Assembly: GCF_012912135.1 (NCBI RefSeq)
Contig: NZ_QMEB01000008.1
Coordinates: forward strand, 1-52,622
Length of the DNA stretch: 52,622 nt
DNA from: Brasilonema bromeliae SPC951
Lineage (GTDB): Bacteria; Cyanobacteriota; Cyanobacteriia; Cyanobacteriales; Nostocaceae
Direction of reading: 5' to 3'
A program made the translations under genes and the position numbers. Each line of letters opens with the position of its first letter. Position 1 is the first letter of the stretch. The notes beneath the pieces were generated by a model, which made no database searches, was not told where the DNA came from, and saw nothing but the letters and a program-made list of their open reading frames with translations. This document shows positions 4,937 to 38,212 of this stretch, piece after piece.

Positions 4937-5674
4937 TTTGGTATCAACTACTGTTGAATGGGCTGTTATTTATCAGTTATCAGTTATCAGTTACCAGTTA
5001 CCAGTTACCAGTTACCAGCTACCAGTTACCAAGACAATTACGGATTAGTTTTCTTCACTGTTCACTGCGTAGGTAGCTGTTCACTGCGGCTGGTACTGCG
5101 TAGGTAGCTGTTCACTGTTTGAACAAACTTAGGCGTTGATGAAAAATCCGATTATGTAAATCAGACTTATTTACTAAATAAGTGTAAGCAAAATCAACTT
5201 ATGCACAAGTGAGATAGAAATCGGAAATTTTTGCGATGCTCCTTTAGGAGCCTTCATGTGGCGATCGCCCTTCTTTGTCCAGAGGGGGTACAAGCCCATA
5301 TTTTTGAGCACATTTTATCAACTATACACTAAAAGAAAAATACTTTTACTACAGCTTCATTAGAACTAAATCTTAGTATATTTTTTGAAAAAAACTAGTA
5401 ATTTATACGGAAATACGAAAGTCAGCAAGTAGTGTTGAACAGGTATTAACAATTTTTGGGATAAATGCTTCTACTTACTTTGTATCAGAATACAAAGCAA
5501 TAAAAATACCTAAACACAGAGTATTAACCTTGTGTTACCAACCAAAACTCTCATGGCTAGTGAGTAGTCTAGAAAAATTGACAAATACCTAGAACTCTCT
5601 CCATCCTTTGGTTCCCTATAAATGAACGGTTAGTCATCAGATTGAAAACGTAATATTGTTTTATAAAGCACCAG
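4937..5674. other. 738-bp gene-free spacer
   Basis: It starts with heptamer arrays (4968-5120), continues with AT-rich sequence that has no convincing reading frame, and includes a short palindrome near 5236 (GCTCCTTTAGGAGC) and one HIP1-like GCGATCGC (about 5262). It must hold the divergent promoters of the CHAT-TIR-AAA gene and of the large surface-protein gene, but no clear -35/-10 pair could be assigned. Confidence 0.6.
4968..5120. repeat. Heptamer short tandem repeats (CAGTTAT/CAGTTAC and TTCACTG types)
   Basis: About eight copies of CAGTTAT/CAGTTAC (4968-5032) are followed by TTCACTG-type units and two copies of GCGTAGGTAGCTGTTCACTG. The same two unit types occur together in the atp operon spacers. 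Confidence 0.85.
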
Positions 5675-8600
5675 ATGAAGATTACAGGCATTATTTTCAT
5701 TGATCCATCTGTCAACAACTACGAAATTTTACTTAATTTAGTTGTTGCAAATATCAAGGCTATTGTTCTTGACCCAGAGCAAGATGGAGTCACACAAATT
5801 ACCCAGGTACTATCTCAACACCGTGGAGTGGAAAATGTCCACATAGTTTCCCACGGCTCTTCGGGAACCCTAACCCTTGGCAATAGCGAACTCAGCCTCA
5901 ACACCCTAGAACTTTACGCAGACCAACTCAAGAATTGGTTCTCACCAGATTCTCACCTTCGGTTCTCTCCAGTTCCCTCCCTTCTCCTCTACGGTTGCAG
6001 TGTCGCTGCAGGTGATGCTGGGGTAGAATTCATCACCAAGCTACACCAACTCACGAAAGCAAATGTTGCCGCCTCCGCCAACCTCACTGGCAATGCTATT
6101 TTGGGGGGTGATTGGAACCTAGAAGTCAACATTGGCAACGTTTCAAATCAACCACTGGCATTAAGCGCGGAGGTTATGGCAGCGTATCCATCTGTACTCA
6201 ATAATGCGCCTATCCTCAATGACACCGACGTTATCCTGAATGCCGTTAACGAAAATGCAGGCGCACCCATAGGTGCAGTTGGTACCCCAATTTTCTCCTT
6301 AGTGACCCTTGGTGGTAACGTTATTGACGAAGACCGCGACGCACTCACAGGTATTGCGATCACAAATACTGACACTACCAACGGCAATTGGTTCTACACC
6401 ATCAACAATGGCAGCAACTGGGCAGCTTTGGGGTCTGTATCCGATAACAACGCTCGTCTATTGGCAGCTGATGCAATCACCCGCGTTTACTTGCAGCCCA
6501 ACCCCAACATTAGTAGTCCTAGTCCTATTGTCAATGCTCTAACCTTCCGTGCGTGGGACCAAACCACTGGTACCAACGGCAGCACTGCAGACACCTCCGC
6601 TAACGGTGATACTACTGCCTTTAGCACTGCGACTGACACTGCAGCAATTACCGTCAATGCCGTTAATGATGCTCCTACCCTCAATAACACCAACATCACC
6701 CTAACTGCCATTAACGAAGACGCAGGTACACCCACAGGAGCAGTTGGTACCCTTATTTCCTCCTTAGTCACGGGTGATAACGTCATCGACCCAGACAGCA
6801 ATGCACTCAGGGGTATTGCGATCACAAATGCTGACACTACCAACGGCAACTTCTTTTACAGCGCTGACGATGGCAACAACTGGGCACCTTTAGAGTTGGT
6901 ATCTAATACTAACGCTCGCTTATTGGCGGCTGATGGAATTACCCGCATTTACTTCCAGCCCAAAGCCAACTTTAATGGCACCATCAACAATGCTCTAACC
7001 TTCCGTGCGTGGGACCAAACCACTGGTACGAACACAGGCATTGCGAACACCACCATTAGTGGTGGCACTACTGCTTTTAGCAGTACAACTGGCGCTGCAG
7101 GAATTACGATCAATTCCGTCAATGATGCTCCTACCCTCAGTGAAGCTAATATCACCCTAACTGCAATTAATCAAAATGTAGGCGCACCCATAGGCGCAGT
7201 TGGTACGCTTGTTTCCTCCCTAGTCCGTCTTGGTGATAACGTCATCGACCCCGACAGCAATGCACTCACAGGTATTGCGATCACAAATGCTAACACTACC
7301 AACGGCAATTGGTTCTACAGCACCAACAACGGCAGCAGCTGGATACCCGTAGGAATTTTATCCGATACCAACGCTCGCCTATTGGCGGCTAATGCAAGCA
7401 CCCGTCTTTACTTCCAGCCCAACGGCAACTTTAATGGCAGCATCGATAATGTTCTAACCTTTCGTGCATGGGACCAAACCAGTGGTACCAACGGCAGTAC
7501 TGCGGACACCAGCGTCAACGGTGCTGCTACTGCTTTTAGCACTGGGGTTAACACTAGCACAATTACCATCAACGCCGTCAATAATGCTCCTATCCTGCTT
7601 GACACCAACCTCTTCCTAAGCACAGTTGAAGATGCAGGCGCACCCACAGGACCAGTTGGTACCCTTGTTTCCTCCTTAGTCAGTCTTGGTGTTAACGTCA
7701 CCGACTCAGACAACAATATAACTACAGGTAATGCATCTACAGGTAATGCACTTACAGGCATTGCCATCACAAATGCGAACACTACCAACGGCAGTTGGTT
7801 CTACAGCACCGATGATGGCAGTAGCTGGGCAGCTTTAGGATCTGTGTCCGACACCAACGCCCGCCTATTGGCGGCTAATGGAACCACTCGCCTTTACTTC
7901 CAACCCACCGCTAACTTCAATGGCTCGATCAACAATGCCCTCACCTTCCGTGCTTGGGACCAAACCAGTGGTACCAACGGCAGCACTGCGAACACCACCC
8001 TTAACGGTGGCACTACTGCCTTTAGCATTGCGACTGACGCTGTTGCAATTACCGTTGATGCCGTCAATGATGCTCCTATCCTCCGTGACACCAACGTCAC
8101 TCTAACTGCCATTGACAAAAATGCAGGCGCACCCATAGGGGCAGTTGGTACGCTTGTTTCCTCGTTGGTGAGTGTGGGTGTCAATGGTAACGTCACCGAC
8201 CCAGACAGCAATCCACTGACAGGTATTGCGATCGCAAATGCTGACACTACCAACGGCACCTTCTTCTACAGCACCGACAATGGCAATAACTGGGCACCCT
8301 TAGGGTCTGTATCCAACACCAACGCCCGCCTATTGACAGCTGATGCCAACACCCGCATTTACTTCCAACCCAACGCCAACTTCAATGGCATCATCAGCGA
8401 TGCTTTGACCTTCCGTGCATGGGACCAAACCACTGGTACTAACGGCAGCACTGCGGACACTACCGTCAACGGTGGCGCTACTGCCTTTAGCAGTGCGACT
8501 GATACTGCTGCAATTACTATTGGTACTGTCACCAACCCTGTCACCAATCCCGTCACCAATCCCGTCACCAATCCCGTCACCAATCCCGTCACCAATCCTG

Positions 8601-34144: not shown

Positions 34145-35341
34145 AGTAAGTCGGCGGGAAAATTTATAAGTATGTAACGAAAATTTAACTAGAAGAATTA
34201 GAGTTAAATTTCATACGTTGTATCCTGTAGTTTCCTTTTTCTCCTCTAGCTTGAACACCATCAATTACCGCGTAGGCAAGGTCTAACTCATCATCAAACA
34301 TTCGTCCTGCTAGTTCATCCTTTTTAAGGTGTTGCCACTCTAATTCAATTGGGTTCATTTCAGAACAATATTTGGGCAAAAAGAAGATATATAAACCCAT
34401 CTGTTCCCACTTTGACCACATCTGTTGGACTTCTTTGCACCGATGTATTGCGCCATTGTCTTGGACGATTACCCTAATGCGTCCGACATCAGAGGCTTCA
34501 CGGGCTTCTTTCTCCATCATCTGGATATAAGACTTGCGATCAACACCCCCAATCACCAAACCGTAAACAAAACTGATTAGAGGTTGAAAAAACCCGATAA
34601 TGCTTAGTCTTCGACCCCGACGCTTTGTCTGTTCTAAGCGTTTTTGCTCACCCCGTTGGTAATAGCTGTAACTTGGCTCACTCCATGCACAAAACCCTGA
34701 TTCATCTAAATACTTGAGGTCTATTTCTCCTGTAGCAGCAGCTAATTCCAACATCTCTAGGTCAGCTTGCTTCTGTTCTCGTACTACAGGGTCTTGTTTT
34801 CCTTTATGACTCTTTCTAACTCGCTTCCATATGACCCCCTTTTTTTTAGCACCCGTCTTAACCTGTCGGGACTTAATTTAATAGAGCGTTAAGCGTAGCT
34901 CTGCCGTAGGCAATCGCTTTGTAATTTTTGAGCTAATTGAACACTGTTGTATGTACGTGGTTCCTTTTTCAGGCATTGTTCCAAAAAAACTATGTCTGAC
35001 TCCTTGCACTTGGGTTTTCCCCCTCGACCTGGTAACTCCCAAAGGCTCTCTAGACCTAACTTTTGCCATTTATGTAAAACCTCTCTTACTGTTTGAGGAG
35101 TCCAATTAAAATGGGCAGCTATTTTTTCAACGTACCAACCATGTGCATTTAGCCTAACGACCTCTGCTCGGTCTTTAACTTTCTGTGGTACATCCGCAGA
35201 TCTTAGATTGAACAGGGTTTTGTCTTGTTCACGGGTTAGGAATACCCTGATACGAGCACCCATATCTTACTTACCTCAGTAGATACATTCTCCGTATTTA
35301 TTTATCTTTACATAGTTTGGTTTTTTCACGCCGTTTTACTT
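34145..35341. mobile_element. IS630-family insertion sequence (about 1.2 kb), degenerate
   Basis: The left end AGTAAGTCGGCGGGAAAA (34145) and right end (inverse of 35324-35341: AGTAAAACGGCGTGAAAA) match at 15 of 18 positions, and similarity extends to TATGTAA inside. TA dinucleotides flank both ends (34143-34144, 35342-35343), as expected for IS630. It contains one transposase gene in two frames. Confidence 0.82.
34185..35263 (-). pseudogene. IS630-family transposase, disrupted
   Basis: The first frame (34889-35263) has the helix-turn-helix region (NAHGWYVEKIAAHFNWTPQT). The second (34185-34754) has the DDE catalytic parts: LDESGFCAW, VQDNGAIHRC, YCSEMNPIELEWQHLK. The intermediate reads KLSPDRLRRVLKK at an A8-G5 run where a -1 slip (usual for this family) would join the frames to GVIWKRVRKSHKGKQDP. 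Ahead of that, a GC mini-repeat (about 34893-34925) has inserted a stop codon after YNSVQLAQKLQ. So frameshifting alone cannot restore the protein. Confidence 0.8.
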
Positions 35342-36031: not shown

Positions 36032-38212
36032 GTGTTAGACCAATTCACACCTGAATTTTCCCGTCCTCATCGGCGACTACCTAACCAAAGGTGGCAAATT
36101 TATCCTCAAAAAACAGAATTAGCGCAACAGATGGCGCAAACAACGAGTTTATCGCCCTTAATCAACCAATTGTTGATAAATCGGGGTATTGAAACGCCAG
36201 AACAAGCACAAGTTTTTTTAAATTCAGGAAACCTGATATTACCTTCGCCTTTGGAAGACTTTCCTGATTTGGGAATGAGTCTGGAGTTATTGCACAATGC
36301 GATCGCCCCTTGGGCGGGTCCCCTTGGGACCATCGCGCCAAGCGCAGCGCCAGAGGCGATCGCCTCTCAAGAGAAAATCGCCATCTGCGGTGACTACGAT
36401 GCTGACGGAATGACAAGCACTGCTTTACTTTTGCGTAGTCTCCGCTGGCTGGGTGCTCAAGTCGATTATGCTATCCCCAGTCGAATGCATGAAGGCTACG
36501 GTATCAATAAACGCATTGTTGAAGAATTCCATAGCGAAGGTGTAGGATTAATTCTGACTGTAGACAATGGCATCTCAGCTTTTGAACCAATTGAGCGAGC
36601 CAGAGAACTTGGTCTAAAAGTTATTATCACCGACCATCATGATATCCCTCAACAATTACCTCCAGCACACGCCATTCTCAATCCCAAACTGATACGAGAA
36701 TCTTCTCCTTACCGAGGTATTGCTGGTGTTGGTGTCGCCTACATTTTGGCTGTGTCCCTTGCTCAAAAATTGGGACAAGCTAATGATGACATCTTAACTT
36801 CGATGCTGGAACTTTTTACACTGGGAACGATTGCAGATTTAGCTCCCTTGACTGGCGTAAACCGCCACTGGGTAAAAAGTGGTTTGCAGCACTTACCCAA
36901 ATCCAAGCTACCTGGAGTGCGAGCGCTTATTCAGATGTCTGGGGTGCACTTGAGTGGAGGACAAGGGGACGAATCAATTCAAAATTCAAAATCGCGTAGC
37001 GTTGATCGCGAAGCGACGCAATCTCAAAATTCAAAATCGTTAAAGCCGGAAGATATTGGCTTTCGCTTGGGACCGCGAATTAATGCAATTGGTCGGATTG
37101 CTGATCCGCAGATTGTGATCGAATTGCTGACGACTGACGATATGGGGATAGCGCTGGAAAAGGCGATGCAGTGCGAAGCAATTAACCGTCAGCGTCAGGA
37201 AATGTGCGAGCAAATTGAGAATGAGGCAAGAGAAATTGTAGAAATAGAATATCTCCCCTCTCTACAGGAAGACCGCGTGTTGGTTATTGTACAACCTGAC
37301 TGGCACCACGGTGTGATTGGTATTGTTGCTTCTCGCTTGGTGGAACGCTACGGTGTCCCGGTCTTTATTGGCACATATGAGGATGAGGGGCAGATTCGCG
37401 GTTCAGCGCGTGGAATTCCAGAGTTCCATGTGTTTGACGCTTTAGAATATTCTCAGGATTTGCTTGGAAAATTTGGCGGACACAAAGCTGCTGGGGGCTT
37501 TTCTTTACCATCAGAGAATTTAGAAGCATTGCGATCGCGTCTGAGTGAGTTTGCAAATCAGTGTCTAGAACCTCAGCACCTAAAACCACTTTTGAAGATT
37601 GACACATCGGCTTTACTCAATCAAATTCATCATCAGTTTTATCAACAGCTTAATGTATTAGAGCCGTGCGGAATCGACAACCCAGATCCCGTATTTTGGA
37701 CATCTAATGTTCGAGTCATTGAGCAACAAATAGTGGGCAAGGGTCATATCAAGCTGACCATAACACAAACTATTGATGATTCGGAATACAAAATTAAAGC
37801 GATCGCCTGGCGCTGGCGTGAGTACTTTCCTCTACCGCCGCGACTGGATATCGCTTACAAACTACGAGAAAACCACTTTAATGGCAACACTACTATCGAG
37901 TTGGAGTTACTTGGTGTTAGGCTTCCAACCCAGTCTCACATTTTTTTCGCTGCACACTCAGCGCCTTTAAGAACCACTTTTGAGTACAATCAATGCCACT
38001 ACACGTGTGGGATTTATAAAAACGGTTCTGTACCAGAATTGAGAATCGGAAATCCTGACGGCAAAATTCTAGCCGTTCCGCTAGGACACAGCATCGGTTT
38101 ACTGGGAAGCAGTCGTCAACAGGCTATACAAGTTGATGTTTCTCAACCCCAATACAACCAGATTCTTCAAACTGCTCTTCAAGCTTTATCAATGCTGAGC
38201 AATCAGTACTAA
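36032..38212 (+). CDS. recJ: Single-stranded-DNA-specific exonuclease RecJ
   Basis: 726 residues from GTG 36032, longer than usual. The DHH motifs are present: CGDYDADGMTSTALL, LTVDNGISAFEPI, ITDHHDIPQQLPPAHAILNP, LFTLGTIADLAPL, then DHHA1 (HGVIGIVASRLVERYG, GSARGI, GGHKAAGGFS) and the OB domain (LEPCGIDNPDPVF). Two stretches are not RecJ: AGPLGTIAPSAAPEAIAS (36313-36367), just before the first motif, and NSKSRSVDREATQSQNSKS (about 36980-37039), both encoded by GC mini-repeats inserted in frame. The second is flanked by 15-bp direct repeats. It digests ssDNA 5'-3' in repair and recombination. Whether the inserts affect activity is unknown. Confidence 0.92.
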   Translation: MLDQFTPEFSRPHRRLPNQRWQIYPQKTELAQQMAQTTSLSPLINQLLINRGIETPEQAQVFLNSGNLILPSPLEDFPDLGMSLELLHNAIAPWAGPLGTIAPSAAPEAIASQEKIAICGDYDADGMTSTALLLRSLRWLGAQVDYAIPSRMHEGYGINKRIVEEFHSEGVGLILTVDNGISAFEPIERARELGLKVIITDHHDIPQQLPPAHAILNPKLIRESSPYRGIAGVGVAYILAVSLAQKLGQANDDILTSMLELFTLGTIADLAPLTGVNRHWVKSGLQHLPKSKLPGVRALIQMSGVHLSGGQGDESIQNSKSRSVDREATQSQNSKSLKPEDIGFRLGPRINAIGRIADPQIVIELLTTDDMGIALEKAMQCEAINRQRQEMCEQIENEAREIVEIEYLPSLQEDRVLVIVQPDWHHGVIGIVASRLVERYGVPVFIGTYEDEGQIRGSARGIPEFHVFDALEYSQDLLGKFGGHKAAGGFSLPSENLEALRSRLSEFANQCLEPQHLKPLLKIDTSALLNQIHHQFYQQLNVLEPCGIDNPDPVFWTSNVRVIEQQIVGKGHIKLTITQTIDDSEYKIKAIAWRWREYFPLPPRLDIAYKLRENHFNGNTTIELELLGVRLPTQSHIFFAAHSAPLRTTFEYNQCHYTCGIYKNGSVPELRIGNPDGKILAVPLGHSIGLLGSSRQQAIQVDVSQPQYNQILQTALQALSMLSNQY

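Follow-up and report, generated by a model that had tools for sequence, protein, structure and literature searches.

Dispersed repeats read in frame within recJ and other genes of Brasilonema bromeliae SPC951

The recJ gene of Brasilonema bromeliae SPC951, located in the 52,622-nucleotide stretch of contig NZ_QMEB01000008.1 analyzed here (the window), carries two inserts, designated insert 1 and insert 2 (E2). Both are quite probably small, nonautonomous dispersed repeats that have survived in frame in tolerant loops of RecJ and turn over there. The repeats are dispersed in the genome, empty and filled sites occur among relatives, the reading frame is kept, recJ is under purifying selection, the insertion sites are loops of low predicted confidence, and copies lie in frame in other core genes. 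The repeats of both inserts are probably mobile. Their parts are ordinary, being dispersed cyanobacterial repeats; what is unusual is that core enzymes repeatedly accommodate them in frame in fixed loops. The two inserts differ in kind: insert 1, a twice-nested double hairpin, is bordered by HIP1, and insert 2 is a repeat flanked by heptamers. The features are as follows.

36032..38212, + strand: recJ, host gene (open reading frame; DHH, DHHA1 and RecJ_OB domains; TIGR00644; ratio of nonsynonymous to synonymous substitution rates [dN/dS])
36299..36306, + strand: HIP1 octamer GCGATCGC, left border of insert 1 (repeat search, family D1)
36302..36331, + strand: insert 1a, double-hairpin repeat of 30 bp set into HIP1 between GCG and ATCGC (RecJ comparison, own-genome copies, hairpins, pair changes)
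36332..36358, + strand: insert 1b, 27-bp HIP1-bounded unit common to the window, L001 and L002 (RecJ comparison)
36356..36363, + strand: HIP1 octamer GCGATCGC, right border of insert 1 (repeat search, family D1)
36956..36982, + strand: G-rich left arm (GGAGGACAAGGGGACGAATC...) (by-eye resemblance to the arm preceding other E2 copies, in the flanks of L112, L114, L116-L118, L120 and L121)
36979..36994, + strand: left flanking direct repeat TCAAAATTCAAAATCG, two heptamer units (repeat search, D4)
36983..37037, + strand: E2, dispersed repeat of ~55 bp, peptide NSKSRSVDREATQSQNSKS (DNA similarity, copy and peptide searches)
37024..37039, + strand: right flanking direct repeat TCAAAATTCAAAATCG (repeat search, D4)

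Two repeat inserts in an intact recJ

The host gene has a GTG start and an intact frame of 726 residues encoding a single-stranded-DNA exonuclease. The product scores 466.5 bits against RecJ model TIGR00644, above the cutoff of 396.9, and all three domains are detected. Outside the inserts, dN/dS is 0.06 to 0.11 between the window and six relatives, indicating that recJ is kept by purifying selection; a pseudogene was set aside on the open frame and the dN/dS. The genome also contains a second RecJ-like gene (G000:C74:18314-20032) with 35% identity to the window RecJ, a redundancy that could relax constraint on either copy. RecJ was compared with that of 80 relatives, the top-ranking ones of 139 by tblastn, and the extraction pattern for sites and linkers recovered all 81 sequences (two stricter patterns, recovering 73 and 72, were superseded). 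These relatives presumably represent the heterocyst lineage, a label taken from the genus names of their records.

Insert 1 comprises 57 bases (36302-36358) that are extra relative to most relatives and lie in frame between GCG (36299-36301) and ATCGCC. It consists of two nested units, of 27 and 30 bp, between the GCG and ATCGC of a HIP1 octamer. A short form of this site, with 11 residues between S.ELL and ICGDYDAD, occurs in 78 of 80 relatives; L001 and L002 have nine additional residues and the window has 19. The octamer GCGATCGC is intact in 65 of the 78 empty-site DNAs. L002 reads GCGATTGCGCC, where the window has GCG, the 30-bp unit and ATCGCGCC; the 27-bp unit is therefore the older of the two, and the 30-bp unit was added later. 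Of the 81 RecJs, only that of the window has the 30-bp unit at this site. Comparison with L002 and L003 places this unit at GCG/ATCGC, although ATCGC stands at both of its ends, making this break point one of several equal choices.

Sequences like both units occur elsewhere. Ten further places in the same genome match the left 38 bp of insert 1, partly or over the full length (82 to 94% identity; E values up to 0.0022), and insert 1b resembles stretches elsewhere in relatives (query positions 34 to 65; 88 to 94% identity). A pattern for insert 1a has 10 exact matches in the genome, including that of the window, and across the family it occurs in 19 of 140 genomes and 11 of 56 genera; a reversed control pattern has no match in either search. 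Insert 1a folds into two hairpins (fold z score, -2.42). Among 46 distinct copies drawn from the family-wide matches, the first free pair is CG in 19, GC in 19, AT in 1, TA in 1 and TG in 3, with 3 misfits, and the second is CG in 39, GC in 2, TA in 2 and TG in 2, with 1 misfit. The pairs are thus mostly preserved through two-sided changes, which gives the hairpin compensatory support. The same 30-bp insertion is found in an SNF2-family gene, identical in B. bromeliae SPC951 and one congener and as a variant in a second congener. One further genome has a different insert at that site, 18 of 24 homologues are empty (12 of these 18 with intact GCGATCGC), and 2 of 24 were missed by the pattern.

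Insert 2 is a match to a dispersed repeat of ~55 bp, a length that takes in its heptamer flanks, and is read in frame as NSKSRSVDREATQSQNSKS. Identical copies of TCAAAATTCAAAATCG flank it, 45 bp apart; the initial annotation had noted them correctly as 15-mers, and they are in fact one base longer. These heptamer-based direct repeats could belong either to the target or to the element itself. The genome holds 14 long E2 copies, 13 besides that in recJ, and one of these is 100% identical over 55 bp and lies outside any open frame of 60 residues. DNA matches occur in 11 of 40 genomes, including this one, and beyond the genus all are of 33 nucleotides or fewer. A search by peptide gives hits in 6 of the 145 family genomes and 1 of 56 genera, and in 6 of the 7 genomes searched from the genus. 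In recJ itself, the E2 core is present in 2 of 80 relatives, L001 and, as a worn copy, L006.

The initial annotation had described both stretches as in-frame, repeat-derived additions to RecJ, and the copies of both elsewhere in the genome bear this out. Its description of the repeats as GC rich applies clearly to insert 1 only. Its expectation that alignment would find both stretches missing from some relatives was correct, and neither is conserved at one place across the order; a conserved RecJ feature was set aside on the 81-sequence comparison. One point needs amending: insert 2 is no island in an otherwise fixed region, and the length of its site differs among the 81 RecJs. An intein was set aside as too short, on length alone.

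Variable loops and in-frame copies in other genes

The linker that contains insert 2, before RLGPRINAIGR, ranges from 6 to 59 residues (median, 32), whereas the length of RecJ outside it is 555 or 556 residues in 73 of 81 sequences. The 81 linkers comprise 79 distinct sequences, mostly filled by repeats other than E2, and no common motif was seen in their alignment. In a wider sample of the phylum, the linker has 13 to 32 residues in eleven nearer cyanobacteria (L142-L152), 20 in two (L153 and L154) and 5 to 7 in ten more distant ones (L155-L164). The predicted AlphaFold structure of RecJ has a predicted local distance difference test (pLDDT) score below 50 at residues 94 to 112 and 308 to 337 (mean, 72.3), with six other low stretches. 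Both insert sites thus fall in low-confidence, probably disordered loops of the model.

Similar loops occur in other enzymes, for which only rows found in a single frame were counted. The MurD loop has 46 residues with E2 in B. bromeliae SPC951, 26 to 80 residues of other sequence in six congeners and 10 residues in four other genomes; MurD structure 3lk7 has one residue where the protein of this strain has 37. In its AlphaFold model (mean pLDDT, 83.7), residues 169 to 201 are the only internal stretch below 50. A variable loop of PriA has 21 to 41 residues without E2 in three congeners and 9 in one distant genome, and QueA with an E2 derivative, in one genome, is 24 residues longer than in four congeners. 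Homologues without E2 were seen for murD, priA and queA. Two PriA loci of other genomes (L273 in G064 and L274 in G063) are on contigs that stop inside the loop insert, and therefore the repeats probably break assemblies there.

Examination of E2 covered 51 copies, 14 from this genome and 37 from congeners, the latter picked by eye at ~41 nucleotides or more. Three of the six frames of the consensus are open. Among copies well inside frames of at least 150 residues, frame F0 is used in 20 of 24, F1 in 1 and F2 in 3; by the author's grouping of host genes, F0 is used in 15 of 19 (P = 6e-5 versus one third). A spanning frame of at least 150 residues was found for 28 copies. Four of them (L113, L117, L202 and L204) were excluded from the frame count, as E2 lies within the first 58 codons of the stop-to-stop frame, perhaps upstream of the start; two use F2 and two R0, and their inclusion would make F0 20 of 28. 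L203, with E2 at the extreme C terminus, was included. The host list derives from copies found by DNA similarity rather than from all genes and is biased toward well-kept copies. Selection against the F1 peptide, which is basic, and the R0 peptide, which is hydrophobic, may wholly account for the F0 bias.

Hosts scoring above curated cutoffs are recJ, murD, priA, modB, queA and hypF; the modB host is ModB fused to an ABC ATPase, and the ModC model scores below its cutoff. By Pfam domains, further hosts are a GNAT enzyme, a C39-peptidase ABC transporter, nonribosomal peptide synthetase (NRPS)-like modules, an FTR1 permease, a DAO-ThiG fusion, a histidine kinase, a PAS protein, a UPF0182 protein, an ABC transporter and a thiamine-pyrophosphate enzyme. 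Hosts L114 and L216 had no Pfam family match, and L114 had none in NCBIfam either. In the ModB-ABC fusions of B. bromeliae SPC951 (L121) and a congener (L219), different repeat derivatives occupy one interdomain linker in different reading frames. In NRPS-like proteins of two genomes (L194 and L196), E2 lies in frame directly upstream of YKTGD, between AMP-binding and AMP-binding_C.

Origin and turnover of the inserts

The preferred reading of small dispersed repeats tolerated in loops suggests the following course of events. The 27-bp unit would have entered a HIP1 octamer in an ancestor, and the 30-bp double-hairpin unit would next have entered the HIP1-like border of the 27-bp unit, between GCG and ATCGC. 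The 55-bp repeat may have entered, or arisen in, CAAAATT/C heptamers of a linker with a long history of collecting repeats. The inserts would have been kept because their length is a multiple of three, the frame used has no stop and they occupy surface loops. Since direct repeats (HIP1 and TCAAAATTCAAAATCG) stand at both sides, clean in-frame deletion would be possible, so that the loops turn over; deletion between these repeats is the putative route of loss. The inserted peptides would be passive spacers. The initial annotation took such repeats as a source of new protein segments; any usefulness of these segments would be hypothetical, and the evidence fits tolerated passengers gained and lost in one fixed loop.

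Several observations weigh against this interpretation. No transposase or reverse transcriptase was found linked to the repeats, and no insertion event was witnessed. E2 has no inverted arms of at least 12 nucleotides in a repeat search of the window; its fold is unremarkable (z score, -0.25), and on that test a structured RNA is unsupported. The 30-bp unit at the recJ site comes from one assembly only. In priA of a congener (L272, in G061), the frame shifts inside the loop insert, beside a run of five Gs, which is either a true mutation or a sequencing error in the repeat; unless it is an error, not every insert is in frame. The distribution among close relatives is also discordant: in a tree of RecJ outside the inserts, the window, L001 and the pair of L002 and L006 form a strongly supported yet unresolved group of four (support for the pair is 94/99, just under the tree's star level), and L002 has the 27-bp unit without the E2 core while L006 has the E2 core without the 27-bp unit. 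Because these two are paired in the tree, one has to invoke loss, parallel gain or recombination. Gain alone is insufficient unless events were parallel; clean loss via the flanking direct repeats, or recombination, can account for the pattern.

Slippage alone could also suffice to lengthen many linkers in their heptamer and G-rich parts. Plain low-complexity drift of the linker by slippage of short tandem repeats (CAAAATC and GGGGAGCAG), with no mobile element, would suit its wide length variation. At least two heptamers, or at least two G-rich units, are present in 65 of the 81 linkers, compared with two or more heptamers in 3 and two or more G-rich units in 9 of 1620 control windows, by motif expressions picked after inspection of the linkers. 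Such drift is nevertheless unlikely as the explanation, as neither insert 1 nor the E2 core is a tandem repeat and both recur as units with similar ends elsewhere in the genome. Moreover, 14-mers of the linkers recur in recJ-flanking DNA of the 81 loci at 14.4% (1022/7081) versus 0.8% (1222/154978) for the rest of recJ. The linker unit of L018 likewise recurs, with 8 matches in its own genome and 21 in that of L027, though there is 1 in that of L019 (one mismatch allowed, recJ copy counted).

A selected function, in which the inserted peptides tune RecJ through protein contact, localization or regulation, could draw on the long loop of most of the 81 RecJs relative to the distant cyanobacteria. 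It is very improbable given the diversity of the linkers, their lack of a common motif, the low model confidence at the loop and the occurrence of an identical peptide in unrelated enzymes. An assembly artifact is scarcely credible, even for a draft genome of 447 contigs that is 89.76% complete and alone shows the 30-bp unit in recJ: relatives from other assemblies have E2 and the 27-bp unit at matching places, frames are preserved, and the 30-bp unit lies in the exact HIP1 context of its family.

A broader extension of the dispersed-repeat reading is put forward tentatively, at somewhat less than even likelihood. Housekeeping proteins of the heterocyst lineage (RecJ, MurD, PriA, QueA and the ModB fusion linker) may have fixed landing loops in which various tiny mobile repeat families are repeatedly gained and lost in frame. 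Within the genus, the 55-bp repeat may have become an element that is safe to encode, with a single tolerated frame, as an independent counterpart of the coding palindromes of Rickettsia.

Relation to known repeats and other features of the window

Small dispersed repeats (SDR), SDR5 among them, were reportedly described by Elhai et al. in Genome Research in 2008. SDR are 21 to 27 nucleotides long, and some form hairpins, backed by compensatory changes, nest in one another or are located in heptamer arrays. Hairpin, nesting and heptamer settings are seen here too, with a compensatory hairpin for insert 1a, unlike E2. The present units differ in being in frame inside conserved protein genes; their lengths are 27 bp for insert 1b, 30 bp for insert 1a (25 bp plus a repeated ATCGC) and 55 bp for E2 with its heptamer flanks. 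According to PMC4390886, the insertion point of SDR5 lies between the third and fourth nucleotides of HIP1 (GCG/ATCGC). Insert 1a can be placed exactly at this point in both recJ and the SNF2-family gene, a likeness that concerns the insertion point.

Rickettsia palindromic elements (RPE) are described in PMC2229807 and PMC10969869 as palindromes of ~105 to 150 bp in frame in unrelated conserved genes, and the activity of one repeat-bearing host protein was assayed (PMC2229807). E2 resembles the RPE so described in being dispersed and in frame inside several unrelated conserved genes, adding peptide. It differs in being 55 bp long and nonpalindromic, in belonging to a cyanobacterial genus, in sharing its loops with other repeats and in being known here from sequence alone. 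E2 works like the Rickettsia coding palindromes yet is not one of them, because it lacks their size and form, a palindrome of 105 to 146 bp with terminal inverted repeats. Miniature inverted-repeat transposable elements, as portrayed in PMC10969869 and PMC2229807, are also short, nonautonomous and dispersed, with some copies in genes; E2 is shorter, with no inverted arms of at least 12 nucleotides found and no transposase link.

Among the titles and abstract openings returned by the literature searches, none reports in-frame repeats of this kind in cyanobacterial proteins; the central SDR paper was not covered, so novelty is not claimed. The findings tie changes in protein sequence to an established class of tiny dispersed repeats. 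Repeats of a kind also present in intergenic DNA are read within loops of core enzymes, filled and empty states of which are comparable in close relatives, and HIP1-linked insertion can be followed with exact before and after states. Whether repeats of this sort ride along as passengers or supply proteins with raw material, a long-standing question, thereby becomes directly testable.

Short tandemly repeated repetitive (STRR) sequences are the heptamer repeats of heterocystous cyanobacteria, and several separate heptamer arrays are a trait of STRR-rich genomes. CAAAATT/C heptamers likewise flank E2 and fill many RecJ linkers, with the difference that here they are coding and in frame, with a nontandem core between them. 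The window has tandem heptamer arrays at 4970, 9676, 38938, 46202, 48119, 50370 and 51859 (TTACCAG, CAGGGAA, ACAGGGA, CAGTTAT, TTCACTG, CAGGGAG and TCAGGAG, respectively). "STRR fingerprinting" is named in the abstract of PMC5088731. Positions 6198 to 8517 of the window hold five head-to-tail copies of a 465-bp unit, which perhaps encode a repeat protein. Upstream of recJ, two adjoining open reading frames (34185-35263, - strand) with DDE_3 and helix-turn-helix domains are probably a split transposase.
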